Shown: piece after piece, positions 12,553 through 47,165 of the stretch | How the letters are laid out: each line of letters starts with the position of its first letter | How positions within the stretch are numbered: the first letter of the stretch is position 1 | Origin: Platanthera guangdongensis | Taxonomy: Eukaryota; Streptophyta; Magnoliopsida; Asparagales; Orchidaceae | DNA: 64,000 bases | Direction: 5' to 3' | Assembly: GCA_039583875.1 (NCBI GenBank) | Contig: CM077166.1 | Span: 80,350,564 to 80,414,563, forward strand | Notes under the pieces: model-generated | What the model was told of the DNA's origin: nothing | Databases searched by the model: none | The model's input: the letters and a program-made list of their open reading frames with translations, nothing else | Program-made: the position numbers and the translations under genes

Positions 12553-12585
12553 CTTTTTACTTAGCCAATTTTTGGTTCTGTAAAC

Positions 12586-15500: not shown

Positions 15501-15747
15501 TTATACTAATGAGGTTGTGTTTCAACCCTTTAACATAAGCCACTTGAGTAATGGTAACAAGGTTTGAAGAGATGTTACCAAACCCTTTGATGATTCCTTT
15601 TTCAGAACCACCAAAGGTCACTTTAGGACCATTTTTGATTGGAATGTAATCCTTCAGTAGTCCCCTTGTTCCAGTCATATGTCTGGAACATCCACTATCC
15701 AAGTACCATGTTGGGGTATGGCCACTTGGATTCACCTGCAAAACAAA
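12586..15747 (-). pseudogene. pol: Pol of A1: protease, integrase, RT, RNase H
   Basis: Domains in order: aspartic protease ([13 protein letters not shown] near the start), zinc-binding pre-integrase (HKRLAHLNY...CSACQKGKQ), integrase triad ([26 protein letters not shown]), reverse transcriptase ([14 protein letters not shown], then [10 protein letters not shown] with intact YVDD) and RNase H (DADFAGCKEDRKS, AESEYVAAGSCCAQ). It follows gag in the same frame after a single TAA. Two breaks exist. One missing base near 13290, after MKTPMG, is shared with A2 and so older than the duplication. A deletion of about 11-12 bp near 12784 removes the ISIANN part of RNase H and is private to A1. The family is SIRE/Maximus-like copia. 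Confidence 0.93.
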
Positions 15748-15750
15748 TTA
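15736..15750 (-). other. A1 gag-pol junction: stop plus acceptor-like tract
   Basis: TAA at 15750-15748 ends gag. TTTGTTTTGCAG follows in frame and leads into pol. Pol could be made by stop-codon readthrough, as proposed for SIRE-type elements, or by splicing to the CAG. A2 has the same sequence. Confidence 0.5.
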
Positions 15751-17787: not shown

Positions 17788-17890
17788 GTTTCTTGAAGTT
17801 CTTGAATTTCTTGAATCTGTTTTCTGACTTAGACTGTTTCTGCCAAACAGGATCTCCTTAGACTGTTAGTCCTTGTTTTGAGGAACCTCC

Positions 17891-17901
17891 CTCTGATACC
17901 A
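17891..17901 (-). other. A1 primer-binding site (initiator tRNA-Met)
   Basis: The minus strand reads TGGTATCAGAG two bases after the LTR end, the classic complement to the 3' end of plant initiator tRNA-Met. Confidence 0.92.
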
Positions 17902-17903
17902 CT

Positions 17904-20002
17904 TGAAAGATATGGTACCTAAACACCTAGAGGGGGGGGGGTGAATAGGTGACCTAAACCTTTTTCAAACTTTGTTGGCAGCACAACAGTTATTCCACAG
18001 AATTCTACAGCTAACAGCAATTACAGTTAATTCACAGCACAGCACAGCACAGCAGACACACTAATTTATAGTGGTTCCCCAATCTTTGGGTACATCCACT
18101 TTCCCCCTTGGCCTATCTAGCAGTGTACTAGATTCGGCCAACCTTCTCCACTATCTCAGAACCCAACTAGGTTCCTACACCTCAGGCCCAAAGCCTTACA
18201 CTCAGCCACAAAGGCCTACACTCAGCCACCCAGGCCTACACTCAGCCAATTAAGGACTACACTCAGAGTTCTTCAACTCCTACACTCAGGCAACCAAGCC
18301 CTACCCTCAGCCTTTATAATATAGGCTTACAATTCTCTCAGATCCAATGGATCCTACAAGTTAAAATAGAAATACAATAGCTATCTCTACAACTCAGAAA
18401 ATAAGAGAGGAGTTGAGAGTTTCTTGAAGAGTTCTTGGAAGAACTCAGCTAGATCCAAACTGACTTAGCTTCCTTCAAAGCTTCTTGAGTTAGAACTGAA
18501 TTAGTCTGAATCTTCTGCAGTTGATCCTTGACCTCTGCTTCTTGAGATCCAGATGATTCTGAATCCTTCTTCTCAGCCTTAGTTCCAAAGACTGAATTCT
18601 TGATTGGAGTTCTCTCTCTCCAACTTCTTAGATCTGCAGTTGGACTGCCAGATCTTCTTGTGTTGATCCTCTGTGTATCACTTTCCTGATTACTTGAAGA
18701 ATCTGATCAACCACTTTAAGTATTCTTGACAACTACTTGTAACAACAACAATCAATCAGATTCTGTAAACTATGGGTGCCTATTTATAGGCTTCCTTCAT
18801 GGTAACCGGCTGGTCCGGTTCATAACAGACTTCTGATTTCTCTGACAGTTGCTGTAGACCGGCTGGATCGGCAGCTGTCATGTCAACCAGTCACTTCTTG
18901 AAATTCTCTAACTGTCAGATAGTGTCGAGACTTTCTGTTCTTAAGTGTCGACACTTATAGACTAAGTGTCGACACATGTTGTGTAAGTGTCGACACAAGT
19001 CTACAAGGTGTCGACACAATTCCCTGTATGTCTCGACACAAATTCTTCTGCATGTGTCGACACTGAAATTGAGTGTCGACACAAGTACTTGTTCTTCATT
19101 CTTTAACTGTATTCTTCTAAGTGTCGACACATGTTCTTTGTGTCGACACATCTACATGTGTTGAAACTGTCAAGTGTCGACACTGCTTCTTGGTGTCGAC
19201 ACAAGTCTTCAATCTTGTTTCTTCAGCTGAGTGTCGACACATTCCCTTAGTGTCGACACTTGTACTTAGAATATTTTGTAAACTTTTATGTTCTTTGCTA
19301 AGTGTCGACACAGCTCCTTGTGTCGACACTTTCTTCAAGTGTAGAGTCTTCAACTAAGTGTCGACACATTGTGCTGGGTGTCGACACTTTCTTCAAGTGT
19401 TGACTCTTCTGGTTGTGTGTCGACACATTGTGCTGAGTGTCGACACATACTTCAAGTGTTGACTCCTTTGTGTGTGTGTCGACACATTGTGTTGAGTGTC
19501 GACACATTCTTCATATGTTGACTCTGATGTTTGAGTGTCGACACATTGTGTTGAGTGTCGACACTTGTCCTCAGTCTCTGCAGAATTTTGCTGAGTGTCG
19601 ACACAACTCCAAGTGTCGACACTTTCTGGTGTAGACACAGCTCTTCTGAGTGACGACACTTCTGCTAAGTGTCGACACATCTTTTCTGCATTCTTCTTCA
19701 CTGAGTGTCGACACTGCTCCTTGTGTCGACACTTTCTGTCTGGTGTCGACTCTTCTTCCCAGGTGTCGACACAATTACTCCAAGTGTCGACACTGCTTGT
19801 CTGGGTGTCGACACAAGCTTTCTCAAGTGTCGACACTTTCCCTCTGGGTGTCGACCCATGGACTTAGAAACTTTTAGCTTCAGTCCAGTGTATACCTAAC
19901 CTGCACAAGTAACTCAAACAAACATCAAATACATTATGATGTATATCATTGAGTTAGGTGAGGCTTCTTTAAATCAGGTACATTTGACCAATGTACCCAA
20001 CA
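17904..20002 (-). repeat. A1 5' LTR
   Basis: 2099 bp, same ends as the left LTR, G-run of 10. TATA box at 18781-18788. It carries right-LTR-specific bases (ACATCTTTTCTG where left LTRs have ACAGCTTTTCTG) that recur in the A2 right LTR. Confidence 0.97.
18922..19857. repeat. GTGTCGACAC palindrome array in U3 (A1 5' LTR)
   Basis: Same array as 7891-8826. Private variants include GTGACGACAC near 19651 and GTGTCGACCC at the end. Confidence 0.95.
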
Positions 20003-22934: not shown

Positions 22935-23622
22935 TTAGCCATTCCTGACCCAGGTTACCTTGGGTCCTTCTTTCTTTACATAACTACAACTGGAAATAAA
23001 CGAATATTCAGGTTGGCTTTTATATCCTATAGGGTGATATTTCCTAGGTGGAATTATCCATTGATTAAATTGATTATCAAATGTTTTTTGTTGGTTATAA
23101 GTTTTAGAGAAATTAAAATTTTTGTTAAACTGATCTGCATTCGACAAATTTTGGTGAGTTCGTCGATCTGAGTTCGACGAATTGGGATGAGTTCATCGAA
23201 CTCCACTCAGAGAATGATAGAAGTCATTTTCTGAGCCCCAAAATCATCGATCTCTGGTCGACAAACCACACTAGTTTCGTCGATCGTAGTTCAACGAATA
23301 ATTATTATATAAATCTGCGTTCGGAGTTCGTCGAATGGAGTTCGACGAACTGTACATATTTCGTCGATCGGAGTTCGACAAAATCTGTTGAACATTATTT
23401 TTATTTAGATTTTTCTTATTTTGTTTTCTTTTCTTATTCTTTCGTTTAGATTCAATTTGTTTATGATTATTATTATCCAACTTTTCCTTTCCCTTTTCTG
23501 TTACAAATTTTATGGGTGTATTTAATATATTTTTTTGAATAAGTGGGGGTTGGCTTGATGATGCACCTAAGCCCAGCTTGTCATTAAGTCTGACATTGAC
23601 TATGCTTGTGATCTCCATCAAC
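22935..23622 (-). pseudogene. gag: B1 gag C-terminal part, copy 2
   Basis: Copy of 6178-6866, including the in-frame SSNxDRR units encoded by the family-B palindrome (23152-23384). One visible difference is YHPIGYKS for YHPLGYKS. It is joined to its 5' part (36775-38207) across A2. Confidence 0.8.
23152..23384 (-). repeat. Family-B palindromic array inside gag coding sequence (copy 2)
   Basis: The duplicated copy of the array at 6395-6622, with the same order of units. Confidence 0.8.
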
Positions 23623-23627: not shown

Positions 23628-25723
23628 TGAAAGATATGGTACCTAAACACCTAGAGGGGGGGTGAATAGGTGACCTAAACCTTTTTCAAACTTTGTTGGC
23701 ACCACAACAGTTATTCCACAGAATTCTACAGCTAACAGCAATTACAGTTAATTCACAGCACAGCACAGCACAGCAGACACACTAATTTATAGTGGTTCCC
23801 CAATCTTTGGGTACATCCACTTTCCCCCTTCGCCTATCTAGCAGTGTACTAGATTCGGCCAACCTTCTCCACTATCTCAGAACCCAACTAGGTTCCTACA
23901 CCTCAGGCCCAAAGCCTTACACTCAGCCACAAAGGCCTACACTCAGCCACCCAGGCCTACACTCAGCCAATTAAGGCCTACACTCAGAGTTCTTCAACTC
24001 CTACACTCAGGCAACCAAGCCCTACCCTCAGCCTTTATAATATAGGCTTACAATTCTCTCAGATCCAATGGATCCTACAAGTTAAAATAGAAATACAATA
24101 GCTATCTCTACAACTCAGAAAATAAGAGAGGAGTTGAGAGTTTCTTGAAGAGTTCTTGGAAGAACTCAGCTAGATCCAAACTGACTTAGCTTCCTTCAAA
24201 GCTTCTTGAGTTAGAACTGAATTAGTCTGAATCTTCTGCAATTGATCCTTGACCTCTGCTTCTTGAGATCCAGATGATTCTGAATCCTTCTTCTCAGCCT
24301 TAGTTCCAAAGACTGAATTCTTGATTGGAGCTCTCTCTCTCCAACTTCTTAGATCTGCAGTTGGACTGCCAGATCTTCTTGTGTTGATCCTCTGTGTATC
24401 ACTTTCCTGATTACTTGAAGAATCTGATCAACCACTTTAAGTATTCTTGACAACTACTTGTAACAACAACAATCAATCAGATTCTGTAAACTATGGGTGC
24501 CTATTTATAGGCTTCCTTCATGGTAACCGGCTGGTCCGGTTCATAACAGACTTCTGATTTCTCTGACAGTTGCTGTAGACCGGCTGGATCGGCAGCTGTC
24601 ATGTCAACCAGTCACTTCTTGAAATTCTCTAACTGTCAGATAGTGTCGAGACTTTCTGTTCTTAAGTGTCGACACTTATAGACTAAGTGTCGACACATGT
24701 TGTGTAAGTGTCGACACAAGTCTACAAGGTGTCGACACAATTCCCTGTATGTCTCGACACAAATTCTTCTGCATGTGTCGACACTGAAATTGAGTGTCGA
24801 CACAAGTACTTGTTCTTCATTCTTTAACTGTATTCTTCTGAGTGTCGACACATGTTCTTTGTGTCGACACATCTACATGTGTTGAAACTGTCAAGTGTCG
24901 ACACTGCTTCTTGGTGTCGACACAAGTCTTCAATCTTGTTTCTTCAGCTGAGTGTCGACACATTCCCTTAGTGTCGACACTTGTACTTAGAATATTTTGT
25001 AAACTTTTCTGTTCTTTGCTAAGTGTCGACACAGCTCCTTGTGTCGACACTTTCTTCAAGTGTAGAGTCTTCAACTAAGTGTCGACACATTGTGCTGGGT
25101 GTTGACACTTTCTTCAAGTGTTGACTCTTCTGGTTGTGTGTCGACACATTGTGCTGAGTGTCGACACATACTTCAAGTGTTGACTCCTTTGTGTGTGTGT
25201 CGACACATTGTGTTGAGTGTCGACACATTCTTCATATGTTGACTCTGCTGTTTGAGTGTCGACACATTGTGTTGAGTGTCGACACTTGTCCTCAGTCTCT
25301 GCAGAATTTTGCTGAGTGTCGACACAACTCCAAGTGTCGACACTTTCTGGTGTAGACACAGCTCTTCTGAGTGTCGACACTTCTGCTAAGTGTCGACACA
25401 GCTTTTCTGCATTCTTCTTCACTGAGTGTCGACACTGCTCCTTGTGTCGACACTTTCTGTCTGGTGTCGACTCTTCTTCCCAGGTGTCGACACAATTACT
25501 CCAAGTGTCGACACTGCTTGTCTGGGTGTCGACACAAGCTTTCTCAAGTGTCGACACTTTCCCTCTGGGTGTCGACACATGGACTTAGAAACTTTTAGCT
25601 TCAGTCCAGTGTATACCTAACCTGCACAAGTAACTCAAACAAACATCAAATACATTATGATGTATATCATTGAGTTAGGTGAGGCTTCTTCAAATCAGGT
25701 ACATTTGACCAATGTACCCAACA
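23628..25723 (-). repeat. A2 3' LTR
   Basis: 2096 bp with TG...CA ends, a G-run of only 7, and TATA box at 24502-24509. Confidence 0.97.
24643..25578. repeat. GTGTCGACAC palindrome array in U3 (A2 3' LTR)
   Basis: Same array as in the other three A LTRs, about 30 exact palindromes. Confidence 0.95.
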
Positions 25724-25738
25724 ATCTCCCCCTATTTG
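25724..25738 (-). other. A2 polypurine tract
   Basis: AATAGGGGGAGAT on the minus strand before the 3' LTR. The 285 bases between it and the ORF3 stop (25739-26023) are AT-rich and hold nothing I recognise. Confidence 0.9.
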
Positions 25739-26023
25739 GGAGAAGTCATAACCCTTAGTCAATGATATACACCACTCATAATTAAAAATTAGAGAATGAT
25801 GTAAAGCAGGTATATATCAACAGAGTAAACTTAAACATGTAATAAAGCACACATGTATACTCATTCAGCATTTCATAACAAACAAGAATTAGACACATTC
25901 TACTGAACAACCATGAAATATATTTATCAAAAACTGTTCAAACATTGTGTTTAATACATTGTCAATGATTTACAAAAATGTTTGGATGTAACAGTTTACA
26001 ACATTCTTCAGTCTAATCTTAGT

Positions 26024-28825
26024 CTAATTCTGATCACGTTCTTTTATGACTATGCCTTTCCCAGCTTGTACTTTGGCCTTTACAGCAGCAGCAGCAGCAG
26101 GCTCAGCATCAGCAGTCTTCTTCCCTTTGGAGTCCTTCTTCTTAAGTTCTTCAGCCTTGATTTTCTGCCTTTCAAAATAATGATAGGGCTTAGGAAAGTA
26201 CTTGCTAGGCTCCACAGCTGTAGGAGGTAGCTTTCCTAACTTAGCCTTCCTTCTATGCTGGACAATGGCTTCCTGCCTAATCTCATGCTTCCTCCATTCT
26301 GCTTCTGAGAACCATTTGTTCCTCTCATGTGCATTGTCCTTGGCTGCTTTCCAGGCTGTGAGAATGATGTTCCTAGAAGTAGGGCTCCACTGTTCAAAGT
26401 CTGGTTTTTGCTCAGCCAGTTCCCTGAACTTCTTCTTTGACAGCCTTGTCTCTTCTTCTTTGTCCATAGCCTCTTGCATAGCTGCTGTAATAGGTTGAAC
26501 AACCTTTTCCAGAACAACATTGGACTTTCTAGCAGTTGGGCTATACATTGTGCTGACTTCTGCATGAACCATGTCAAAATCTGGAGGTGGATAGATCACC
26601 TGAGCTACTTCCTGTTGCTCACCTCCAAGATATGCACTTTGAATACCAGATTCAGCTACATTATCATCATCACACAGGGGAGGATAGCCCAGTGTAGCTC
26701 TGATGGAGTTAGATATCCATTTGGCATGGTCAGAGCTAGCTTTGACTAACACCCTCTCCCCCTTTATGACTTCTTGTTCTACATGATCTCTTACATCATC
26801 CTTTTGGAATCTAATCTGACTGTCCAAGTACCTGATTCCTTCCTTAAAATAAGGTCTAAGCTTAGTAAGCTGTTCAGAAATGACCTTCTGTGAATCTTTA
26901 ATGGCAGTCTTGACAGCAGCAATTTCTTCCTGAAATACTTTATCAAATTCAGCTTTGGCAGCAGCAGATGATGTTGAAGGTTCAGCAGACTTACTCTTCA
27001 GTTCAGTGACTATTGCATTGTGGGATGCAGTCAAATTATCATTCATTCTTAGTTGATTCTCCAGCACATAGCCTTGCTTTAGTGCTATATCATCTACTTG
27101 AGTCTTAATTTGTTCTTGATGTTTAGCCAGGAATACCACTGCATTTCCACCTTTGTGGAAGCATTCATTCATTTCTTTCTTATTCAGATTCATCTCAAAC
27201 CTGATTGACTTGATGTCTTGAGCTAAGTCAAATTGTAAAGATTTTTGGCCCTCATCAATATATTTTTCTATGGCCCTCCTGTGCTCATCCAGCTTAACTT
27301 GCATTGCTACCATTAATCCACTATAATCAGTTGATGGAGCTTGTTGGACTAGAGAGTGTTGAGCAACAGTTTGTAGAGCCTTCTTGTAGCTCTGACTCCT
27401 TCTTTTGAATACAAAGAATTTCTTCTTTTTAGCTTGTTCAGTCTCATCATCCTCAGACTCTGAAGTAGTTGCTATATTCACCCTATCCTTAGGGCTTGAG
27501 GGTTTGTCATCTTGCACATCAAGTGCTTTCTCACTTTCCTGCCTAATAGGTTCTTCCTGAACTTCCAAGATCTCCCCCTCAACAGCAGCACTCTGCTCTT
27601 CATCAGCAGCAGTCTTGTCCATGTCAAAATCCTCTTGATCTAGATTCAGAAAGAGGTCTTCCATTGTGTATTCAGGAGGTGACTGAGCAGGAGATGTACT
27701 GGGTTCATCAACTACTTTATCAGGAACTGTTTGCACACCAGCAGATGTGTCTGGGAGAACAACATCTGATTCTTGAGTTGCTTGCTGAGTTTGCTGATGG
27801 ACATCAGACAAATCAGAATCTATTATAGAAAAATCTAAAGTATTGAGGTCAGAAAGTACCTCTTGGATGATTATTGTAGCTTGCTCACTCTCCAGTGTAG
27901 AGGGTTGTTCTACATCTGGAGGCTCCCCCTGGATTTCAGCTGGCTCTTGAGGAGCAGGAGACTTCTCTGCATCCACATCTATTGGACTATCAGGAGTGAA
28001 AACAACATGTTCTTCACTACCTGAGCTGCTGGAGGACTCCTGAGTCACAGCAGCTATCTTCCTCTTCTTCTTTGGAGGGGAATCCTTCTTAGAGACTTGC
28101 TTCTCTAGAGTAGGAACTTCCTGAGATAGTACTCTTTCCCACCTGGAAAATATCCTTTGGTCCATCCTTCTCATGTGATTGATTTTAGTAGCAGCAGCAT
28201 TACTCATTACCTCTGGTATTGTACCAGCCAGGTAGAGACTAAGTATTCTGCCCAGATTGGGCTTCTTCAGACTCTCCTTAATTTTGTCAAACACAACCAT
28301 TGACCAGTCTGTTTTTAGGTTGAAGATGATTCTGGTCATAACACTGAACATGGAGGCTGACACCCTGTCATGCCCTCCAGTCTTACTGAGTATTACTTTA
28401 CCCACAATTTCTGACAAGAATTTTCCTTGAGTATTCATTCCTCTCCTGTTGAATACTGATCCTATCTTTAGCTTAGGATCTAGTCCACACCAGGTAAGTG
28501 CTTCCCTGGTCTTAGATGTTGTCACTTCCTCTTCTTCCTGAACTTTAGGTAGCTGAAGTACCTTTCTCAGAGATTTGGGTGAAATCTTGACCTTGGTGCC
28601 ATGCACCCTTGATTTGATTCTGTAGCCTGAGTCATCTACAGACGCTCCCGTTAGGAATTCAAGAACTTCCTTCTTCCATATTTTAGTTGGTTCAGAAACC
28701 AAGTACTTCAATCCTGAATCGGTGACTAGGGTTACCACCGATTTTATTTCTTGATCGCCATCGTCGAATGCGCCACGAACCAGTTCATAGCCTTCATTGA
28801 CGTTCTCTTCGAGCTTGGGAGCCAT
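26024..28825 (-). CDS. ORF3 of A2, intact 933-aa putative nuclear protein
   Basis: The ATG at 28825 opens MAPKLEENVNEG. Residues 1 to about 235 form a globular region; its part at about 135-205 (IVGKVILSK...TDWSMVVFDKIK...GRILSLYLAG) aligns by eye with family-B ORF3. SPPKKKRKIAA (PKKKRK at 251-256) is a textbook monopartite nuclear-localisation motif. Residues about 265-480 are acidic and Ser/Pro/Gln-rich. AKKKKFFVFKRRSQ is a second basic block. About 500-700 is a long helical, probably coiled-coil region. The C-terminus is rich in Lys/Glu and ends VIKERDQN. No signal peptide or membrane helix is seen, so the usual SIRE 'envelope-like' label does not fit. It lies behind a GTGTCGACAC array and TATA box. 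Function unknown; a DNA-binding or anti-silencing regulator is my inference. Confidence 0.9.
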   Translation of the reverse strand: MAPKLEENVNEGYELVRGAFDDGDQEIKSVVTLVTDSGLKYLVSEPTKIWKKEVLEFLTGASVDDSGYRIKSRVHGTKVKISPKSLRKVLQLPKVQEEEEVTTSKTREALTWCGLDPKLKIGSVFNRRGMNTQGKFLSEIVGKVILSKTGGHDRVSASMFSVMTRIIFNLKTDWSMVVFDKIKESLKKPNLGRILSLYLAGTIPEVMSNAAATKINHMRRMDQRIFSRWERVLSQEVPTLEKQVSKKDSPPKKKRKIAAVTQESSSSSGSEEHVVFTPDSPIDVDAEKSPAPQEPAEIQGEPPDVEQPSTLESEQATIIIQEVLSDLNTLDFSIIDSDLSDVHQQTQQATQESDVVLPDTSAGVQTVPDKVVDEPSTSPAQSPPEYTMEDLFLNLDQEDFDMDKTAADEEQSAAVEGEILEVQEEPIRQESEKALDVQDDKPSSPKDRVNIATTSESEDDETEQAKKKKFFVFKRRSQSYKKALQTVAQHSLVQQAPSTDYSGLMVAMQVKLDEHRRAIEKYIDEGQKSLQFDLAQDIKSIRFEMNLNKKEMNECFHKGGNAVVFLAKHQEQIKTQVDDIALKQGYVLENQLRMNDNLTASHNAIVTELKSKSAEPSTSSAAAKAEFDKVFQEEIAAVKTAIKDSQKVISEQLTKLRPYFKEGIRYLDSQIRFQKDDVRDHVEQEVIKGERVLVKASSDHAKWISNSIRATLGYPPLCDDDNVAESGIQSAYLGGEQQEVAQVIYPPPDFDMVHAEVSTMYSPTARKSNVVLEKVVQPITAAMQEAMDKEEETRLSKKKFRELAEQKPDFEQWSPTSRNIILTAWKAAKDNAHERNKWFSEAEWRKHEIRQEAIVQHRRKAKLGKLPPTAVEPSKYFPKPYHYFERQKIKAEELKKKDSKGKKTADAEPAAAAAVKAKVQAGKGIVIKERDQN

Positions 28826-28859
28826 TAGGGTTTGGAGAATTAGTCTTTAGAAGAGAGAA

Positions 28860-29307
28860 ATGTCGACACAGTAGTTTGGTCTCGAAACTCTGAAAGCGTG
28901 TCGACACACAAAGACAGAATCCTATTTATACCTTTCTGGTTTGAAGACGAACAGGCGGGATGGATTACTCAAGATGTGTCGACACTGGCAATAAGTGTCG
29001 ACACTGACTTATAATGTCTTGACACTCATGTGTCGACACAAGTTTAGTCAACAGATTTTATGTGTCGACACTTGGTTAAGTGTCGACACCACACTACTCG
29101 ACATGTAGTCGAGACTTTACTTAGAAAATTCTGAGTAAAACTTAAGTGTCGACACCTTATTGAATGTGTCGACACCAACTCGACATGTGTCGACACTAAC
29201 ATTCTGAAGTGTCGACACCAACTTCCTAGATGTGTCGACACCATTTTCCTGAAGTGTCGACACTTACTATTCTGTGTCGACATAGACTTGTCTATGTGTC
29301 GACACCT
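28860..29307. repeat. GTGTCGACAC array in pol-ORF3 spacer (A2)
   Basis: The duplicated copy of 12108-12552, with about a dozen exact palindromes. Confidence 0.93.
28923..28930 (-). promoter_or_regulatory. Internal TATA box before ORF3 (A2)
   Basis: TATAAATA on the minus strand, 98 bp before the intact ORF3 start, with palindromes upstream. Confidence 0.6.
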
Positions 29308-29338
29308 TTTTACTTAGCCAATTTTTGGTTCTGTAAAC

Positions 29339-32300
29339 TTAGTCTAAGTTTATCATACCTAGTTCAATTTTGAACCTATTGAACTTAGCTTCTTCTAAGG
29401 GCTTAGTAAACATATCAGCTATCTGATTATCAGTTTTAACATATTCAAGTGCAATATCATTTCTTTCTACATGCTCCCTAAGAAAGTGATATTTAATCTC
29501 AATATGTTTAGTTCTACTATGTGATACAGGATTGTTAGCTATTGAAATAGCACTTGTAGAATCACAGTAAAGTGGAGTTCTACTTACCTGAAATCCATAG
29601 TCTTCTAGCTGATGTTGAATCCACAGAAGTTGAGCACAGCAACTTCCTGCAGCTACATATTCTGACTCAGCTGTGGAAATAGCCACACTGGTTTGCTTCT
29701 TACTGCTCCATGAAATAAGTCTTCCACCTAGGAATTGACAGGATCCAGTAGTGCTCTTTCTATCTTCTTTGCATCCTGCAAAGTCTGCATCTGAATAGCC
29801 TGTTAGATCAAAATCTCCATTCCTAGGGTACCAGAGGCCTAGATAGGGAGTGCCCTTTAGATATCTCAAGATTCTCTTGACTGCAGTCAAGTGAGACTCT
29901 TTAGGGCAAGCTTGATACCTGGCACAAACACATGTAGCATACATAATGTCAGGCCTACTTGCAGTCAAGTATAGTAGGGAGCCAACTATCCCTCTATACA
30001 AGGTTTCATCTACAGGTTTCCCTGCATCATCCTTGCTCAGAGACATACTTGACCCATAGGAGTCTTCATGGTACTGGATGAATCCATACCATACTTCCTT
30101 ATGAGTTCTAGGGTGAACTTGGACTGACATATGGATAGACCACTTCCAGTCTGTTTAACTTGGAGACCCAAGAAAAACTTCAGTTCTCCCATACTACTCA
30201 TCTCAAATTGACTTTGCATAAGCTTTGCAAACTTTTTGCAAAGGCTACTTTCAGTAGACCCAAATATAATGTCATCTACATATATTTGGACAAGTATGAC
30301 TTTGCCTCTAGATTCCCTAAGGAATAGAGTCTTATCTATTTTCCCCCTTGTGAACTTGTTCTCAATGAGGAAACTAGATAGGGTTTCATACCAAGCTCTA
30401 GGTGCTTGTTTTAACCCATATAATGCTTTCCTAAGTCTATAGACATAATGAGGTAGAGTTGGATCAACAAAACCTGCAGGCTGCTCCACATAGACTTCTT
30501 CTTTCAAATTACCATTTAGGAATGCTGACTTCACATCCATTTGGTATACCTTGAATCCTTGATAGGTTGCATAGGCCAAGAACATCCTTATGGCTTCCAG
30601 TCTGGCTACTGGAGCAAAGGTTTGATCAAAATCAATACCTTCTTCTTGCCTATATCCTTTTGCAACCAGTCTTGCTTTATTCTTAATGATGACTCCTTGT
30701 TCATCTAACTTATTCCTATAGATCCACTTTGTTCCTATCACATTGTGATCTTTAGGTTTAGGAACCAAGTCCCAAACCTTGCACCTTTTGAACTGATTAA
30801 GTTCTTCCTGCATTGCTTCAGTCCACTGTGGATCTTGTATAGCTTCTTCAAATTTCTTTGGTTCTATTTGAGACAGAAAACTTGAATATACTACAGCATT
30901 CTGATTTCTGCTCCTTGTCTGAACACCTTGTCTTGGATCTCCAATAATCAGCTCTACTGGATGATCTCTTAGATGCCTGTTGGCTGGAGGCATCCTTACT
31001 TCTGGTTGAACTTCTTCAGCATCTTCATCAACCTGAGTTCCTTGTACTTCTTCAGCTCCTTGTACATGTAGTTCTCCCCCTGGACATAAGCCATCTCCTT
31101 CTACTTGCTGTCTTGCAGCAGGTACATCTTCTATGGTTAGCTTGTCCATCTTCTTAGTAAGACCTGTGGGACTGCATACATTGCTAGACAACTCATTGTT
31201 AATTAGTTGTGTCTCATCAAAAACTACATGCACAGACTCCTCTACAACTTGTGTAGTCAAGTTGTAGACTCTATAAGCCTTACTATTATTGCTGTACCCA
31301 ACAAACACTCCCTCTTGGGACTTGGCAGCAAACTTAGTTAGGTAAGACTTTCCATTGTTAAGTATGAAGCATTTGCAACCAAAAATCCTGAAATAGGATA
31401 GATTTGGTTTCCTGCCTTTCACAACCTCATAGGGGGTCTTGTTTAACCTTTTAGTGATGGTAGCCCTATTTATCACATGGCATGCAGTGTTAACTGCTTC
31501 AGCCCAGAAATACTCTGGCAGTGATGAATCACTTAATAGGGTTCTACCAGCCTCTATCAAGGTCCTATTTTTCCTTTCAGCAATGCCATTTTGCTGAGGT
31601 GTTCTAGGTGAAGAGAATTCTTGAAATATCCCATAGTCTTCACACAGTTTTGTCATGCTTTCAGACTGAAACTCAGTACCATGGTCACTTCTAATTTTGA
31701 CCACTGTACAGTTCAATTCATTCTGAATTTGCTTAACAAAGCTATGGAAGATACTATGTGTTTCAGATTTCTGCTTTAAGAAGAACACCCAGGAAAACCT
31801 TGAGTAGTCATCAACAACTACAAAGGTATAGACCTTCCTACCTAAGCTGTGAACTGGCATTGGACCAAATAGATCCATATGCAAGAGGTATAAACACCTC
31901 ACAGCATCTTTGTTGTCTAAGCTTCTAAAGGTGGATTTAGTCTGCTTGCCCTTTTGACAAGCTGAGCAAATGCCATCTTTGACACACTTAACTTGAGGAC
32001 CATTCCTCACTAACTCTTTGCTAAAGAGTTTGCTAATAGTCTTGTAGTTAAGATGAGCTAGCCTCTTGTGCCACTTGACACAATGAGAGACTGTCTCATC
32101 AGCTACAAGACAAACAGGAGAACCATTGTTCTCAATCATAATGTCTAAGCAGTAGACATTCCTCTTTCTATATCCTGTCAAAATGATCTCTTGATCACTT
32201 GACCTCTTGATATGACAACCATTTTTAACAAATGAGATGTCATACCCTACATCACTTAACTGACTTATATTAATGAGGTTGTGTTTCAACCCTTTAACAT

Positions 32301-32511
32301 AAGCCACTTGAGTAATGGTAACAAGGTTTGAAGAGATGTTACCAAACCCTTTGATGATTCCTTTTTCAGAACCACCAAAGGTCACTTTAGGACCATTTTT
32401 GATTGGAATGTAATCCTTCAGTAGTCCCCTTGTTCCAGTCATATGTCTGGAACATCCACTATCCAAGTACCATGTTGGGGTATGGCCACTTGGATTCACC
32501 TGCAAAACAAA
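29339..32511 (-). pseudogene. pol: Pol of A2, one shared frameshift
   Basis: Same domain order as A1: WYLDSG protease, HKRLAHLNY pre-integrase zinc region, D,D,E integrase, RT with [10 protein letters not shown], and RNase H through SRTKHIEIKYHFLREH to the end LEEAKFNRFKIELGMINLD. The first frame covers 32505-30037 and the second 30130-29339. The only break I see is the one-base loss after MKTPMG near 30050, also present in A1. RNase H keeps ISIANN, which A1 has lost. Confidence 0.93.
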
Positions 32512-34552
32512 TTAATGAACCTTAGAACCCAAAGTAAACTTGGGTCCTTGGTGATTGTTAGTTTGCAACTTAACAAAGCTACCTGTTGGCTTTCCACCAG
32601 GTAACTTGCTACTCAACTTGGCACTGGCATTGTGCCAACAATCCAAGGCAAAGTGGCCAACCTTGCCACAACACCAGCATTCAAACTTGTTGTACCTTTG
32701 CTTAGGTACAGACTTGGCTGTCTTGACTACAGCAGGCTTATTGAATGTTGGGGCTTTGCCCTTGGACTTGGACTGATCCTGAGCAGTCTTAGCTGGTTTA
32801 ATAAAACCCAATCCAGCCTTTCCTTTATGATGAACAAATTCATCAATCAAGGGTAGCACTGATTTAGGTTTTGAAAACCTAGCAACTAGCTCTCTTTCCT
32901 TCTGAAGATTGATCTCCAGTCTCTTAATTTGATCATTTTTATAAGTGATAGTTCCCATCTGAATCACAGTAATGTGTTTCAGCCTGGCTACCTCATTGAG
33001 CTTTTGATCAAATTTCTTCTCAAAATCTGTTGCAGCTGCCTTGAGATCAGCAATCTCCTTTAGCCTGACTTTTGGACTAGGGTCTTGCTTTTCTTATAGG
33101 CTTGCAACAGTATTTTGTATTCATCTAAGAGCTGATGAATATCTCCCTCAGATTCAGAAACACTTCCATCACTTGATGAAGATGAATCTGACTCTGAACT
33201 AGAACTAGAATCTGAACTTTGAGTTGGACTTTGTACCTGACTAGGTCCTGGCTGCTCCAGGATTTTGGTACTTTCAGTCAATGCCATCAGTCCTTGGCAC
33301 TGACACTCTTCTTGTTCATAGATTGATTCCATGATCTGCATAAACTCTTCTTCTTCTTCAGCAAATAGCCCTATGTAGGCTTCAGCATCTGTCTCAGTAT
33401 CTGAAGAAGAAATGTCTGAAAGAGTCTTCTCATTCTTTGCAACAAAAGACTTCTCCTTCTTTCCTTTGAAGTGAGTCTTCTTTTTGTCACTGGATTCTTT
33501 TCTTCTCTCAGGACAATCTGCAATAACATGACCCTGTCTATTGCAGCAGTAACACACTATCTTAGACCCAGTTGCCTTGCTAGTCTTTGTCTTTTTCTTG
33601 TCCTTCTTTGAAGGCTTCTTCTCCTGATACTGGACTTCTTTCCCTTTGGAAAATGAAGGTCTGGACCTCCACTGTTTCTTCTTCAGGAATTTCTGAAAGT
33701 GTCTGGTGAATGCAGCAAAGTCTTCATCACTTTCACTGCTTGTAGACTTTGTGCTAATAGACTCATCTGATTCTGATTCAACTACCTCTGGAGGAGGGGT
33801 TGATGACTTAGTCCTGCCCTTTCTAGGTACTTCTGACTTGAAGGCAACAGTCCTTTCCCTGTGCTCAGTCCTTGTTGATTTTTCTTCCTCTTTTCTCACT
33901 GACAGCTGCATCTCATAAGACAACAACTTCCAAACAGTGTGGGAGGAGGAATTTCTCCCAACTTTGCCATTTCTCTGATGGCACAGATCTTAGTGTCCCA
34001 ATCTTTGGTTAGGGACCTCAAGAACTTATCATTCAATTCATAGTTAGTGAACTCTCTTCCATAGGACATGAGTTCATTAACAATTCTATAGAACTTCTTG
34101 TAGCATTCAGTGATGCTATCTCCTCTTCCTTGCCTAAAGCTCTCATACTCTTGATTAAGCAAGGACTTTCTATCTTGCCTAACTTCTTCAGAACCTTCCA
34201 TATAGACAATGAGGGTATCCCACATTTCTTTTGCTGTTTTACAGTGAATTAGGTTCTGAAAAGTTGCATCATCAATGGCACTTACTATAATGTTTTGTGC
34301 CCTTTTGTCCATAGTGGCTAGGACAATTTCATCCTTGGTCATCTCAGAGAAATCCTTTGGAGTCCTCTGATTTGCATCCAGTACTGAAATCTTCATTGGC
34401 ACATAAGGCCCTTCCTTAACTGTGATGTAGATTCTTGGGTCTGAGGCCTCCATAAATAGCCTAACCCTTTCTTTCCAGATTCCAAAAATCTCCTTCCTGC
34501 ATATGGGTAACTTCATGGAACCCAACTCTTTGTGATTCTCATAAGAACCCAT
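32512..34552 (-). pseudogene. gag: Gag of A2, broken by two indels
   Basis: Same protein as the intact A1 Gag, with both zinc knuckles readable. Loss of one C near 33930 shifts the frame after PPTLFGK, and extra bases near 33060-33075 shift it again in the helical segment. Both changes are absent from A1, so they arose after the duplication. Confidence 0.92.
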
Positions 34553-34655
34553 GTTTCTTGAAGTTCTTGAATTTCTTGAATCTGTTTTCTGACTTAGACT
34601 GTTTCTGCCAAACAGGATCTCCTTAGACTGTTAGTCCTTGTTTTGAGGAACCTCC

Positions 34656-34666
34656 CTCTGATACCA
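34656..34666 (-). other. A2 primer-binding site (initiator tRNA-Met)
   Basis: TGGTATCAGAG on the minus strand, two bases from the LTR end. Confidence 0.92.
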
Positions 34667-34668
34667 CT

Positions 34669-36769
34669 TGAAAGATATGGTACCTAAACACCTAGAGGGG
34701 GGGGGGGGGGTGAATAGGTGACCTAAACCTTTTTCAAACTTTGTTGGCAGCACAACAGTTATTCCACAGAATTCTACAACTAACAGCAATTACAGTTAAT
34801 TCACAGCACAGCACAGCACAGCAGACACACTAATTTATAGTGGTTCCCCAATCTTTGGGTACATCCACTTTCCCCCTTCGCCTATCTAGCAGTGTACTAG
34901 ATTCGGCCAACCTTCTCCACTATCTCAGAACCCAACTAGGTTCCTACACCTCAGGCCCAAAGCCTTACACTCAGCCACAAAGGCCTACACTCAGCCACCC
35001 AGGCCTACACTCAGCCAATTAAGGCCTACACTCAGAGTTCTTCAACTCCTACACTCAGGCAACCAAGCCCTACCCTCAGCCTTTATAATATAGGCTTACA
35101 ATTCTCTCAGATCCAATGGATCCTACAAGTTAAAATAGAAATACAATAGCTATCTCTACAACTCAGAAAATAAGAGAGGAGTTGAGAGTTTCTTGAAGAG
35201 TTCTTGGAAGAACTCAGCTAGATCCAAACTGACTTAGCTTCCTTCAAAGCTTCTTGAGTTAGAACTGAATTAGTCTGAATCTTCTGCAGTTGATCCTTGA
35301 CCTTGCTTCTTGAGATCCAGATGATTCTGAATCCTTCTTCTCAGCCTTAGTTCCAAAGACTGAATTCTTGATTGGAGCTCTCTCTCTCCAACTTCTTAGA
35401 TCTGCAGTTGGACTGCCAGATCTTCTTGTGTTGATCCTCTGTGTATCACTTTCCTGATTACTTGAAGAATCTGATCAACCACTTTAAGTATTCTTGACAA
35501 CTACTTGTAACAACAACAATCAATCAGATTCTGTAAACTATGGGTGCCTATTTATAGGCTTCCTTCATGGTAACCGGCTGGTCCGGTTCATAACAGACTT
35601 CTGATTTCTCTGACAGTTGCTGTAGACCGGCTGGATCGGCAGCTGTCATGTCAACCAGTCACTTCTTGAAATTCTCTAACTGTCAGATAGTGTCGAGACT
35701 TTCTGTTCTTAAGTGTCGACACTTATAGACTAAGTGTCGACACATGTTGTGTAAGTGTCGACACAAGTCTACAAGGTGTCGACACAATTCCTGTATGTCT
35801 CGACACAAATTCTTCTGCATGTGTCGACACTGAAATTTAGTGTCGACACAAGTACTTGTTCTTCATTCTTTAACTGTATTCTTCTAAGTGTCGACACATG
35901 TTCTTTGTGTCGACACATCTACATGTGTTGAAACTGTCAAGTGTCGACACTGCTTCTTGGTGTCGACACAAGTCTTCAATCTTGTTTCTTCAGCTGAGTG
36001 TCGACACATTCCCTTAGTGTCGACACTTGTACTTAGAATATTTTGTAAACTTTTCTGTTCTTTGCTAAGTGTCGACACAGCTCCTTGTGTCGACACTTTC
36101 TTCAAGTGTAGAGTCTTCAACTAAGTGTCGACACATTGTGCTGGGTGTCGACACTTTCTTCAAGTGTTGACTCTTCTGGTTGTGTGTCGACACATTGTGC
36201 TGAGTGTCGACACATACTTCAAGTGTTGACTCCTTTGTGTGTGTGTCGACACATTGTGTTGAGTGTCGACACATTCTTCATATGTTGACTCTGCTGTTTG
36301 AGTGTCGACACATTGTGTTGAGTGTCGACACTTGTCCTCAGTCTCTGCAGAATTTTGCTGAGTGTCGACACAACTCCAAGTGTCGACACTTTCTGGTGTA
36401 GACACAGCTCTTCTGAGTGTCGACACTTCTGCTAAGTGTCGACACATCTTTTCTGCATTCTTCTTCACTGAGTGTCGACACTGCTCCTTGTGTCGACACT
36501 TTCTGTCTGGTGTCGACTCTTCTTCCCAGGTGTCGACACAATTACTCCAAGTGTCGACACTGCTTGTCTGGGTGTCGACACAAGCTTTCTCAAGTGTCGA
36601 CACTTTCCCTCTGGGTGTCGACACATGGACTTAGAAACTTTTAGCTTCAGTCCAGTGTATACCTAACCTGCACAAGTAACTCAAACAAACATCAAATACA
36701 TTATGATGTATATCATTGAGTTAGGTGAGGCTTCTTCAAATCAGGTACATTTGACCAATGTACCCAACA
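34669..36769 (-). repeat. A2 5' LTR
   Basis: 2101 bp, G-run of 14, TATA box at 35549-35556. Confidence 0.97.
35690..36624. repeat. GTGTCGACAC palindrome array in U3 (A2 5' LTR)
   Basis: Same array. It shares the right-LTR marker ACATCTTTTCTG with A1. Confidence 0.95.
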
Positions 36770-39012: not shown

Positions 39013-40710
39013 TTAAAGTTCAGGAGGTATGCTTGATACCACCTAAAGGTGTTAGTTAGATCAGATATACTCTAGAGGGGGGGTGAATAGAGTATGTTGG
39101 TGATTTTAAAACTTTTACAACTGTTGTTGTATTTTAGGTGTGTGTGTAGGGAAGCAAATACAATAAACCAAGATGCAGCAACTATCTAATCACAGCACAT
39201 TCACAGAGCAAGGCCAGAAAACAAAAAGAAAAGAAAGCAACCAGACGACACAAGAATTTTATAGTGGTTCCCCAAATCTGGGTAGTCCACTCTTCTACCA
39301 CCCTGGTAGGAATCCACTGCAGGAAGGGGTTGATCAGGTGTCCTGGCACCAATGGGGTTTTGATCAGGTTCCCAAAAACCAAACCCTCAAGTCTTTTAGA
39401 GGGAGACTTGCAACCAGAATAATTTTGAAGGGAATTAAAACCCTGTACAGAGGTGGAGTGAGAGGGTGATGAGGTCTTCTCTTTCTCAAGTCAAATGAGA
39501 AGACTTGTGGATTGTTGTTTAGCAGCTTTGCTCCCCCTGAGATGTAGAATGAATCAGGAAGAATGCTGGAGCACTGCTTCAGGGTGATAGGTCTTCAAAG
39601 ACCTAGATTTCCTGGTCCAGAGAAAGTCACCCGGAACTTCTTGTGACTGATATGAATGTATTGTCTTTGAAGTTATCCTGAGTAAAAGCAGATGAAGAAG
39701 ACTCTTGATATTGATGTAGTGTTCTTCTTCTTCTTCTTCTTTATCAGTTTCTCTCTAGGCCAAGAATGAATTCCTTTTTCTGTGTTGTCTGAATCACTGT
39801 CTGTCTTTTTGTTGTATATCACTGTATTACTGACTCTTTCTGTATATCTCAAATATCTCATAAGAAACATTCGAATTTTGAATATAGAGCAGTAATGCAG
39901 ACGGCCTGCAAAGGAAGCAGCAATTAATTATTTCCCCAACTGTTTCCATGGGAAAATGGCATGTAATAATCCAGGATTAACTTCGCATTCTAACGGTAGT
40001 ATTCTGGGAAGAACTGCCATTAAATGTTCAGGAATCAGCGCCATGGAATGAGACGGGAATGGACGAAGACCTAGTCTGGAATAGTCGACCGAAGAACATA
40101 ATTCATCGAACTGAATTTTGAGTTTGTCGAGCTGAGCCTGAGTTCGTCGAGCTAAGCAGAGTTCGTCGAGCTGAGCTGAGTTCGTCGAGCTGACAGTCTT
40201 CATTCGTTGAACAGACAATCTTCAATATCAGACAATCTTTATTCGTTGAGCAGAGAACTAAATTCGTCGAGCTGAGAACTGAAGTCGTCGACCTGAGAAT
40301 CTGAGAACTTGAGGTCCAAGTTCGTCGAGCTCAGAAAGTAATTCGTCGACCAAAGCTTGAAGTTGGACTTAGAGAAATTCTGAAGTAGTCCTGATAATGC
40401 TTGAAGTAGAATCCCGGTGTTCGTCGAACAAAGAACATAGTTCGTCGAGTTCAGCACTACGAATTGTCTCACGATCGTCGAGCGTAGAACTCCCTTCGTC
40501 GAGCTGAGTTCGACGAACGTCGAACTCATTTCATTTAGTCTGAAAAACTGATAGATCTGGAGTTTCTGATGGTCTTGAGGAAGGTTGGTCCATCTGAAGT
40601 TGAGATAGAGGACTGTCCTAGACTCTAAGACATAAACTTGACCCAGACTATACATGATGGGTCATATCCTAAGTCAGTGGACCTAGCACAAATCAACTAG
40701 GGATCCAACA
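39013..40710 (-). repeat. B2 3' LTR
   Basis: 1698 bp, end CCAACA, first base pair TT where the right LTR has TG. It carries CTCTAGAGGGGGGGTGAATAG near the left end and the family-B array at 40085-40522. A TTC microsatellite lies at 39723-39743. Confidence 0.94.
40085..40522. repeat. Family-B array in U3 (B2 3' LTR)
   Basis: Repeated TTCGTCGAGCTGAG-type units and inverted copies, with CpG-decayed versions such as TTCGTTGA. The U3 form (GAGCTGAG tails) differs from the spacer form (GATCTCCG tails). Confidence 0.88.
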
Positions 40711-40889: not shown

Positions 40890-43668
40890 TTACTTCTCTG
40901 TTTTCTTCTGTTTTAGCTTATCTCCTGGTGATTTATCTCCTGAATTTTTGAAAATGATTTCCCTATTGGGATCTGAAGCTTGAGCCCTGGTCATAGTCAT
41001 GTCAGCTGCCCCTATGATGTTCAGTGAAGTGGCTCTGGGGACAACTGCTTCTGGGTGAAGATGCATGTACTCATCAACATTGAGTAGCTTGTTTCCTTTC
41101 CCAAATCTCTTTAGCTCATCTCTCATGTACTGAGACATAATAGTTAAGCCTGTTGTGTCCTTGCCTTCAGCTTTAGCTTTGTTGATTAGAGATAAGCCAA
41201 TGAGCTCTTGGAACCTTGTCATTTTGGCTGTGTTGGCTGTTTCTGGATCTTCAGGAAGAGAATAGGGCCTTTTCAGCTTCATGTTCCTTATATTCCTAGT
41301 GCTGCTGCTGCTGTTGTTGTTGATGGTGTTGTCTGCCTGAAGATGGTGGCCTTGGCTGACTACCACTAGAAGATCTCCCTGTTTGTCTCTGATAAGTTTG
41401 AATATGGGCAGATCTCTGAGAGCCAGAGCCAGAGGCACTTGCTGTTGGAGGAGGAGGAGGAGGAGGATCCTTTCTGTATCTATGAACTGGGGGAGGAGAG
41501 TATCTCCTACTCCTCTTCTTCTCTCTTTGCTGGTTCTTTGATAGCCACATCTATGCAGGCATCCCTTTGTAAGGAGCATCATTGTGCAGAATATAGTATG
41601 GAGTGTCTGCAATGGGATTAGGCTTGGGAGCAGGAGGAGGAGGAGGAGCCTTCCTTTTCTTAGAAAGCAACTTCTTTTTCTTTTTAGCAGCCTCCTCATC
41701 TGATTCATCATCATCATCATCATCAGAACCTGAACTCTAAGGATTGTCATACAGAGCATTCAACTTCCTCAGAGTTTCATCAGAAATGATAAGAGGTTTT
41801 TATTGAGGGGGGATAGAAGGTTCAGAGGGTGAGGGTTCAACAGCAGTAGAGACAGAGCTTTCAGCTGCTGCCTTGTTCTCTTCTTCAATGTCTGCCAGAA
41901 TGAGCTCATCCAGATCAGGCATGGGATAATCATCCATGATAAAATCTGGGACAGAGCAGATTTTTGGAATAGACATAGGAATTGGAACAACAGTAGGAGT
42001 AGCAAAGGTGTCACAGAGTTTCTTGGCAACTGCTGGACTAGCTGGAGAGGTATACTGGACAATAGCCAAATATGGCTTAGCAACCTCTGCTGAAGGAAGC
42101 TTCATATATACAGAATCAAAGGTATGAAGTATCTTAGATAAATTAACTGTGGGATTTATAAGGAAATCACCAGCAGTTGTTATTGTATCTACTGACTCAT
42201 CAAAGCTAATGTCAGTGTCCATAAATTGAATAAAATCAATTGCTGTATCTGTAACTGCAATTGCATTATCAAGCACTGTATCAACTGTATCTGTATTATC
42301 AAAAATTGTATCTGCAGTATCAACTGTATCTGTATCAACTATATTGTCAAAAACTTTATCAACCTCTGTAGCTGCTGCACCAGCTTCATCATGGAGCATC
42401 TCCCCCTGCCTGGGTTCAGGAGAACCTGGAGCCAGCCCCCTGAATGAAGAGGGGGTAGCAGAAAGGGCTGTGATTTGTGCAGATAAAGAATTAATGGAAT
42501 TCACCAGAGGTGTAATGGCCTCTATGATGAGTGATTGAATGAGAGGAGTTAGAAGAGAGATGATGGAGGGAATGGTGGAAGAGTCCAGAAGTGGAGAAAG
42601 AATGGTGGAGGGGATAGAAGCAGAGGAGGGAGGAAGAATATGTGGAGGGGATAATGGAGGGAGAACAGGTTGTGTTTCAGTGGGTATGGTGTAGGATGGA
42701 ATAGTGGATAAGTGTGGGGGAAGAGGGGATTGAGGAGGTGAGGGAATATGGGTTTCAGTGGGGGAAACTGGAGGTGTAGGGATATGTGCAAGATCAAGCT
42801 GTGGAGATTGATGTTGAGGTGGAGTCAATTGAGGTGCAGGAGGAGTGGGAAGAGATTGGGTAGGTGGAATGGCCTTTTCAGTGTCAGGGTGGGGAGTGAC
42901 CTTGACGGTCCTTGTGCTCTCAGAAGCGTTAATAGAGGAGGAGGGACCCTTGGAGGGTTTGGTGATTGTCCTCTCCCATCTGCCAAACAAGGCGCAGGTG
43001 AGGCGCTTGCTGGCATTGATGAATGTGGTCGGGGAGACCAAACATTCACTGGCCTTTTCCTGGAGGAAAATCCCCAGGATTCTGCCGTAGCAGACTTCCT
43101 TCTTGCTTGTTTTCTTCTTGATTAGGTCAAAGAAGACCATGCCCCAGTCGACCTGTCGTTTGTTGAGCACTGCGCACATAATCAGGAATTGATGGCGAGT
43201 GATATAGTCATGTGTCGAGTGCTTGCCCATCAGAATTTTTCCTACAATGTCGACCAAAAATTGATAGGCGGCAGACAGTTGCTTCTTCAGAAGCTTATTA
43301 GGGTGGCTGCCGGAGAAACCCATTACCTTCAACATATCAGAATATTCTTCAGCGTCCATTTCCAAGTTGTCTTCACCATTGATCAGTCCAAAAATTTCAG
43401 AAAGTACTGCTGGAGACAGGGAAACGGCAGTGTTTCCAATATGTCCTGTCAGATCTCCGTCTTCAGAAACGGTTGCAGTGTACACCCATTCTCTTATCTC
43501 GGTTGAGTTTAGCTTGATGCTGCGAGTCATGAAATCCTTGAGATGCAATTCTTCAAGTAATTCCAGGATATAAAGAAAGATTGGATCTGAATGTTGGAAA
43601 GACTCAAAATCCATGGAGAATGATGCATCAAACTTCATCGCCGCAAGTACTGCTGGAGGAATCTCCAT
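40890..43668 (-). pseudogene. ORF3 of B2, nearly full length but broken near its 3' end
   Basis: The ATG at 43668 opens MEIPPAVLAAMKFDASFSMD. The frame is open to 41800 (about 620 codons): a globular N-terminus with IVGKILMGKHSTHDYI, VDWGMVFFDLIKKK and CYGRILGIFLQE, ending at GRWERTITKPSK; then a long Pro/Ser/Thr-rich linker and an acidic region full of Asp/Thr. A stop at about 41800, another near 41738 and a frameshift near 41550 separate the C-terminal part, which has a Lys-rich nuclear-localisation-like cluster (KKKKKLLSKKRK), REKKRSRR and the conserved end KRPYSLPEDPETANTAKM...RFGKGNKLLNVDEYMHLHP. The similarity to family-A ORF3 around IVGK and GRIL suggests a common origin. No membrane segment is visible. 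Confidence 0.85.
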
Positions 43669-43744
43669 TGATGACCTGCAAAGAAAATCACAGAGAAAAC
43701 GACGATCAAGAGCAAAGGAACTGAAAGCGTGGGACGGAGGTCGA

Positions 43745-44058
43745 AGAAAACCTGGATATAAGATTTTCGGAATATGAATCGACAAGCTCCGTTCCATAAA
43801 AAGAGACAGTTCTTCGAACTGAGGTCGACGAAATAAGTTAGAGGTGAGTAGTTCGTCGAACTCATTTAGAAGAATTGAAAACAGTTCGTCGAACTTCGTT
43901 CGATGAAATGGTTTCTGAAGAAAGGTTCGTCGATCTCCGGTCGATGAAAATTGTTTCCACACAGAGAATTTGTCGATCTCCGTTCGTCGAGAATCTCTCA
44001 AACTTTCCCTAAGTCGTCGAACTCCGTTCGATGAACTCTGGAAAATTCGTCGAATGCA
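43745..44058. repeat. Family-B palindromic array in pol-ORF3 spacer (B2)
   Basis: TTCGTCGATCTCCG / TTCGACGAA units, several decayed at CpG. A TATA-like CTTATATCC lies at 43754-43762, 86 bp before the ORF3 ATG. The layout matches B1 and family A. Confidence 0.85.
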
Positions 44059-47148: not shown

Positions 47149-47155
47149 ATTTATA
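47149..47155 (-). promoter_or_regulatory. TATA box of C 3' LTR
   Basis: The minus strand reads TTTATAAATTCAG within about 15 bp of the GGGCGTG array. The right LTR counterpart at 53261-53267 reads CTATAAATTCAG. Confidence 0.6.
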
Positions 47156-47165
47156 AAAAAAAATT

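Follow-up and report, generated by a model that had tools for sequence, protein, structure and literature searches.

A candidate VANC-like role for the ORF3 protein of Sirevirus-type elements in Platanthera guangdongensis and its association with family-specific motif arrays

Results

The 64,000-nucleotide stretch of Platanthera guangdongensis DNA analysed here (contig CM077166.1 of assembly GCA_039583875.1; hereafter the window) contains several Sirevirus-type copia retrotransposons, among them the element A2, whose long terminal repeats (LTRs) are 2.1 kb long and whose third open reading frame (ORF3) sits between pol and the 3' LTR. Arrays of the palindrome GTGTCGACAC occupy the U3 region of both A2 LTRs and stand again before ORF3. 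In the elements read across the genome, the motif of such arrays was found to vary with the type of ORF3, and the best solved match to the predicted fold of the ORF3 N-terminal domain is VANC21, an array-binding protein of Arabidopsis VANDAL transposons; we consider here whether ORF3 may be a nuclear protein that recognises the arrays of its own family. The features of A2 are as follows.

23628-36769, minus strand: A2, Sirevirus-type copia element, recognised by self-comparison, target-site duplication and LTR identities, the polypurine tract (PPT)/LTR junction and copia gag/pol domains
~23628-25723 (3') and ~34669-36769 (5'), minus strand: LTRs of A2; target-site duplication TTGAT
24666-25578, minus strand: U3 array of the 3' LTR, 32 exact GTGTCGACAC, spacing mostly 18-22 or ~40 bp
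35713-36624, minus strand: U3 array of the 5' LTR, 33 exact GTGTCGACAC
28898-29305, minus strand: linker array between pol and ORF3, 13 exact GTGTCGACAC
28921-28930, minus strand: TATAAATAGG, putative ORF3 promoter, ATG 105 bp downstream
26024-28825, minus strand: ORF3, 933 codons, no stop
28061-28825, minus strand: ORF3 N-terminal domain, with a weak Pfam PF20167 match, an AlphaFold2 (AF2) model and a predicted VANC21-like fold
28055-28078, minus strand: PPKKKRKI, nuclear-localisation-like basic motif

The palindrome is 10 bp long, with steps of roughly 18-22 bp or about double that distance; the window contains 153 copies, where 0.02 would be expected. All copies fall into six clusters, namely the U3s of four A LTRs (33, 32, 31 and 31 copies) and the sequence before two copies of ORF3 (13 each). 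Each LTR array ends 166 bp upstream of TATAAA, and a first-pass annotation of the window, which had described the palindrome as filling U3 upstream of the TATA box and recurring before ORF3, was correct on this point. The remaining clusters belong to A1.

6871-20002, minus strand: A1, tandem-duplication copy of the A2 insertion
12145-12552, minus strand: A1 linker array, 13 exact GTGTCGACAC
7914-8826, minus strand: A1 3' LTR U3 array, 31 exact GTGTCGACAC
18945-19836, minus strand: A1 5' LTR U3 array, 31 exact GTGTCGACAC

A tandem duplication of 16.8 kb, with copies 99.45% identical in the self-comparison of the window, covers A1 and A2, and the TTGAT target-site duplication and the flanks are common to both. 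A1 and A2 are one insertion, copied by tandem duplication; that they were two independent elements was ruled out by the duplication and the shared TTGAT and flanks. ORF3 of A1 is split into frames of 744 and 193 residues, whereas that of A2 is open. The duplication spans window positions 4542-38066, breaks within the pol region of element B and may be real or an assembly artefact.

A second motif, TTCGTCGA/TCGACGAA, was counted 72 times in the window against 0.67 expected, mostly in the Sireviruses B and C, where it lies in the LTR U3s, in the linkers before ORF3 and in a third array inside gag. The annotation had grouped these as one family B with its own motif in U3 and before a diverged ORF3; the motif and its placement were confirmed, but the copies belong to at least two elements, and the gag array is an addition.

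40143-40517, minus strand: element C 3' LTR U3 array, TTCGTCGA/TCGACGAA, 10 copies
58761-59176, minus strand: element C 5' LTR U3 array, TTCGTCGA/TCGACGAA, 11 copies
43825-44053, minus strand: element C linker array before ORF3, 6 exact half-sites
42889-43668, minus strand: element C ORF3 N-terminal domain, ATG at 43668; rest of ORF3 frame-broken
55622-55845, minus strand: element C third array, within the gag coding region
2777-2977, minus strand: element B linker array, TTCGTCGA, 8 copies, before ORF3 (ATG at 2601, frame broken)
6402-6610, minus strand: element B third array, gag coding region; duplicate copy at 23159-23367
59781-60091, minus strand: probable element B 5' LTR U3 array, 8 copies; LTR interrupted by the insertion of C

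A fourth type, D, was read elsewhere in the genome. Each of the four types (A, B, C and D) has an extra open reading frame after pol and before the 3' LTR, preceded by repeated motifs that also lie in U3; B, C and D carry the motif in the gag coding region as a third place, as TTCGTCGA in C and B and as ATCGTCGA in D.

Assignment to the Sireviruses was further examined. The Sirevirus PPT/3' LTR junction CCAAATAGGGGGAGATTGTTGG was found at 25739, 8987 and 40726 in the window, and TAGGGGGAGATTGTTGG was counted 63,077 times in the 4.25-Gb assembly, with none for its reversed control. The copia domains Retrotran_gag_2, gag_pre-integrs, rve, SH3_retrovirus and RVT_2 were matched in A2, and Retrotran_gag_2, rve and SH3_retrovirus in the element around A. 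The CGG-CCG core of the Sirevirus repeated motif is in none of the A (GTGTCGACAC), C (TTCGTCGA) and D (ATCGTCGA) motifs; this core is not strictly defining, as the motif of Tnd-1 is also given without it in the available text of the original description (PMC2829016). In IMG/VR, which was scanned by protein and by pattern, tblastn returned no relative, and against four contigs neither ORF3 nor pol gave a tblastn match.

The first-pass annotation had proposed a survey of whether ORF3 and array motif co-vary across related elements, and in the elements read from the genome they do. Fourteen elements with a typed ORF3 had both U3 and linker read: six A (the insertion in the window counted once), one B, three C or C-like and four D, one of the 14 being read as L043/L044/L057 (U3 with six D-type and one C-type sites, part of the linker with three D-type sites). 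U3 and linker shared the commonest of the three motifs in 14/14, over four ORF3 types, and this motif differed between types, being GTGTCGACAC in A, TTCGTCGA in B/C and ATCGTCGA in D. The D motif is one base off the C motif and fills the linker, gag and 5' U3 of L030 alike. The linkers were clean, with 32 C-type and 0 D-type half-sites in four C/B elements and 28 D-type and 0 C-type in three D elements, whereas the U3s were less so (38 C and 8 D sites in C/B; 37 D and 4 C in D). Array layout also differs, with dyads in the linkers and mostly direct sites in C U3s; in the C/B and D linkers, inverted cores stand at one fixed offset 19 times, and every other offset up to 60 bp occurs at most three times. 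Elements within a family share ancestry, and the independent evidence is a few motif changes, each in two or three separate arrays. Such parallel changes in arrays of different layout would best be explained by a factor that shifted its preference together with the element. Left out of the 14 were L014 (a GTGTCGACAC U3; its second array is part of a repeat adjoining a Ty3-type pol, and no ORF3 was found), L029 (linker unread), L031 and L035 (array, no ORF3 in the stretch), and the rearranged copy in L047, L048 and L055, which has a gag-type piece before the junction and another sequence within its U3.

Genome-wide, GTGTCGACAC was counted 2,076,908 times against 2,228 for its reversed control. 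In 20 stretches of 10 kb read blind, 109 of the 119 copies belonged to LTRs or linkers of A, the other 10 to a ~103-bp repeat. GTGTCGACAC is mostly, not wholly, private to A. In the ~103-bp repeat at L015 4260-4600, GTGTCGACAC is mostly paired, 19 bp apart.

The motifs are also better conserved than their surroundings in most comparisons. Between A copies, motif bases were 97-100% identical and the remaining linker or U3 70-90% in 9/9 comparisons (5 linkers, 4 U3s), and between D copies 97-100% against 87-89% outside in 2/2, with motif columns chosen at intact sites of the reference copy, which favours motif identity somewhat. Among C/B linkers the motif was conserved above the spacer in 2/3 comparisons (L046 and B), and not in the recent pair winC/L050. 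In the gag arrays, Ser codons were TCG in 11/16 cases in D (0/67 upstream) and 11/19 in C (0/48 upstream), and Arg codons were CGA in 11/13 in C (0/23 upstream) and 10/12 in D (0/31 upstream), counts in which codons within a tandem array are not independent. From this codon usage it looks as if the DNA motif itself, beyond the peptide, is kept.

A blind fold search of the ORF3 N-terminal domain against a PDB library placed VANC21 with its target DNA at the top, well clear of the other aligned rows, with a weak Foldseek E-value. A Pfam scan of four proteins with E up to 10 gave PF20167, below cut-off, together with chance rows alone, and no match to DUF1985 or DUF287. The VANC parallel drawn in the annotation came out first in this fold search. 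The ORF3 tail was modelled, with poor quality, as long helices. The N-terminal domain of C is 23% identical to that of A, the ORF3 starts of B and C are 54% identical over 157 residues, and ORF3 of D is 51-54% identical to that of C.

Both ORF3 proteins had been described as nuclear-like and free of membrane segments, which holds for A. ORF3 of A contains PPKKKRKI, which we take to resemble the SV40 nuclear signal, and no strongly hydrophobic segment (highest 19-residue hydropathy 1.11, from a hydropathy scan alone). ORF3 of C is frame-broken, its basic motifs are weak, and its hydropathy peaks (1.66 and 1.84) fall partly where the frame is uncertain.

Raw proportions of nonsynonymous and synonymous differences (pN/pS) in the ORF3 domain were 0.06/0.53, 0.12/0.74 and 0.13/0.76 in A and 0.09/0.66 and 0.06/0.62 in D; raw values are quoted since Jukes-Cantor-corrected dN/dS is near saturation, and the ORF3 tail of A2 versus L013, being out of frame, was left out. 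These five pairs (raw ratio ~0.10-0.17) place the domain of A and D under purifying selection, of which the pair winC/L050 gave no sign. Synonymous divergence of the domain was about 3-4 times that of pol in the same pairs (pS 0.53 vs 0.16, 0.74 vs 0.28 and 0.66 vs 0.17; window 28061-28825 with L013 5656-6420 and L016 4939-5673, and L030 345-1112 with L038 1401-2105), and it also exceeded the divergence of the adjoining noncoding linker. This high pS may reflect either exchange between subfamilies or codon diversification, for example to escape homology-dependent silencing.

The TATA-type sequence TATAAATAGG lies 105 bp upstream of the ORF3 ATG in A2, with one exact GTGTCGACAC between them. 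Searched with the pattern TATA[AT]A, a TATA before ORF3 was found at -105 to -108 in 6/6 A elements read, at -120/-121 in 3/3 D and at -165 in B (1/1), whereas in three C-type elements it was more than 430 bp away or absent, so that the TATA box reported before ORF3 is not general. Splice-acceptor-like sequences (TTTGCAG/TTGTAG) were seen by eye just before the ORF3 start in D (L030 1113-1130), C (window 43669-43685) and B (2602-2620), and not in A. Because of these sites near the ATG, a spliced ORF3 message is also possible in B, C and D.

Discussion

On balance, we favour, with some reserve, the reading that ORF3 is a nuclear, sequence-specific, VANC-like factor that would recognise the array of its own family and raise transcription, relieve silencing, or both. 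We propose that ORF3 would be transcribed from its own promoter adjoining pol, enter the nucleus and probably dimerise through its long helical tail. The VANC21-like domain would then read the symmetrical motif in its own LTR promoter, in the ORF3 promoter and, for B, C and D, in gag, leading to more transcription, removal of silencing, or both, and the array at the promoter of ORF3 itself may make the system a self-reinforcing switch. The analysis establishes the arrays, their agreement with ORF3 type, the conserved motifs, the constant TATA distance in A and D, the constrained domain of these two types and the fold prediction; DNA binding, dimerisation, specificity, and activation or anti-silencing by ORF3 are what we infer.

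Several observations weigh against this reading. The Foldseek E-value of the VANC21 match is weak, and the ORF3 domain of C is not basic overall. The pairing of private motif and private protein, as first put forward, holds in that the motif differs among A, B/C and D, but B and C share one motif despite well-diverged ORF3s, and GTGTCGACAC also occurs in the ~103-bp repeat at L014 6545-6885, beside a Ty3-type pol; this repeat may point to a shared host factor or to the capture of the A array by an unrelated element. In family E a U3 array is present with neither ORF3 nor a linker copy, and OPIE-2, PREM-2, Osr8 and Tnd-1 are likewise listed with arrays and without an envelope-like gene in the available part of the 2010 description (PMC2829016, Table 3); such arrays need a host factor or the ORF3 of another element. 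The opposite case, an ORF3 with no arrays, had been named as one that would refute the pairing. The 14 elements with both arrays read here were all concordant, but six published envelope-containing Sireviruses without motif boxes, according to the accessible text of the same paper, come close to it, and the pairing is not universal.

A rival reading is that host transcription factors, one per family, bind the arrays, while ORF3 merely uses the promoter and acts otherwise, in movement, in the particle or as an envelope-like protein, which is near the view of Bousios (2010). The arrays without ORF3, the published envelope-like genes without boxes (PMC2829016, as far as its available text goes) and the GTGTCGACAC repeat beside a Ty3-type pol would all fit. 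However, the one-base difference between the C and D motifs appears in U3, linker and gag together, which argues that the factor changed with the element; moreover, the fold predicted for the ORF3 domain is that of a transposon-array reader, and ORF3 of A, which carries a nuclear signal, shows no clear membrane segment. We regard this reading as rather unlikely.

Less probable still is that the ORF3 domain is an old plant-transposon domain in common with VANC and put to another use (packaging, RNA binding or chromatin contact at integration), with the arrays read by something else. PF20167-like domains do occur in other elements, such as sunflower Athila (PMC11728184, in the part available), the PF20167 match here is below cut-off, and the tail is modelled, if poorly, as long helices. 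Nevertheless, the domain alone fails to explain either the co-variation of array and ORF3 type or the array at the ORF3 promoter. That the arrays are nucleic-acid structures or CpG-dense chromatin elements (CpG islands, recombination sites or RNA hairpins) with no private protein is very improbable, for although the motifs are self-complementary and CpG-bearing, the gag arrays of B, C and D lie in coding sequence and Bousios noted CpG islands over arrays (PMC2829016, available text), any CpG-rich or hairpin sequence would then serve, yet in A and D the exact motif persists (97-100%) between drifting spacers, half-site spacing is fixed, and a TATA box follows the U3 arrays of A.

The arrays themselves are a known Sirevirus trait. 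According to the accessible text of Bousios 2010 (PMC2829016), palindromic motifs precede the TATA box in the LTRs and recur ahead of the envelope-like (ENV) gene, with one consensus per element, and among 13 Sireviruses with motifs, linker copies were present in 9/9 with ENV and 0/4 without (Table 3). That work proposed regulatory roles, nuclear factors and an internal promoter, and its available part names no binding protein. The elements studied here share the palindromic motif in the LTRs before TATA and before the ENV-like gene, and the consensus private to each element. They differ from the elements in that text in a TCGA rather than CGG-CCG core, a TATA box clearly present ahead of ORF3 in A and D, and the gag copies that form a third array; ORF3 is read here as nuclear and VANC-like and not as an envelope.

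VANC21 and VANC6 bind the arrays of their own families in Arabidopsis VANDAL (Mu-like) DNA transposons (Hosaka 2017; PMC5735166, seen in part). As with these proteins in the text available, ORF3 is encoded by the element, dense short-motif arrays are spread over the element at more than one place, the protein's own gene among them (introns for VANC21), and related families have different motifs. Dense private-motif arrays in own noncoding DNA accompany all the concordant elements here, the exception being the repeat beside the Ty3-type pol, which itself resembles the presence of VANC6 motifs in an unrelated element, AT9TSD1 (PMC5735166, same portion). The best solved fold match of the ORF3 N-terminal domain is, by prediction, VANC21. 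Unlike the VANC systems, ours is a copia LTR retrotransposon and not a Mu-like DNA transposon, and it lacks a DUF1985/DUF287 sequence match; the motifs are palindromic or dyads with a TCGAC half-site, whereas the VANC21 motifs described in that portion have one orientation, and one set of arrays is in gag coding sequence.

An extra open reading frame in the same position (eORF-3'F) was reported in 74% of SIRE elements, in 19 groups with little or no similarity, its function being left open in the accessible text (Neumann 2019; PMC6317226). Among LTR elements, extra frames of sunflower Athila likewise have both a nuclear signal and a domain of PF20167 type (PMC11728184, in part), and VANDAL/VANC anti-silencing is brought up for frames of LTR elements in two sunflower papers (available parts of PMC11728184 and PMC12844716), the second of which gives VANC as a parallel. 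The sunflower Athila and Tekay elements are Ty3, and the same parts report no private-array pairing or VANC fold match. Within the partial coverage of our literature search, no paper connected a Sirevirus ORF with VANC or with the arrays of its own element. ORF3 as a VANC-like array reader is new as far as seen, with structural and co-variation support.

A broader proposal, which we advance tentatively and hold somewhat doubtful, is that Sirevirus envelope-like genes as a class are VANC-like self-recognition factors, each family having a private lock (the arrays at the LTR promoter, at the ORF3 promoter and at times within gag) and key (ORF3), and that the same DNA-reading module serves plant DNA transposons and LTR retrotransposons in escaping silencing. 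Sireviruses are abundant in plants, with 63,077 junctions of the A2 type in the Platanthera guangdongensis genome alone. The accessible text of Bousios 2010 (PMC2829016) left open both the role of the envelope-like gene and the motif-reading factor, and a VANC-like ORF3 would answer both at once. If true, sequence-specific anti-silencing would extend from DNA transposons to LTR retrotransposons, and matched protein-motif pairs would be available in A, C and D.

Other repeats in the window are recorded here. A nested element at 44904-54104 has 3.1-kb LTRs that are 98.8% identical, only ~3 kb between them, and its own CACGGGCGTG-type repeats; a ACACGGGCGTGT array similar to these repeats lies inside a Sirevirus U3 in L047. 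At 61117-62278, an 83-bp unit is repeated in tandem in ~14 copies.

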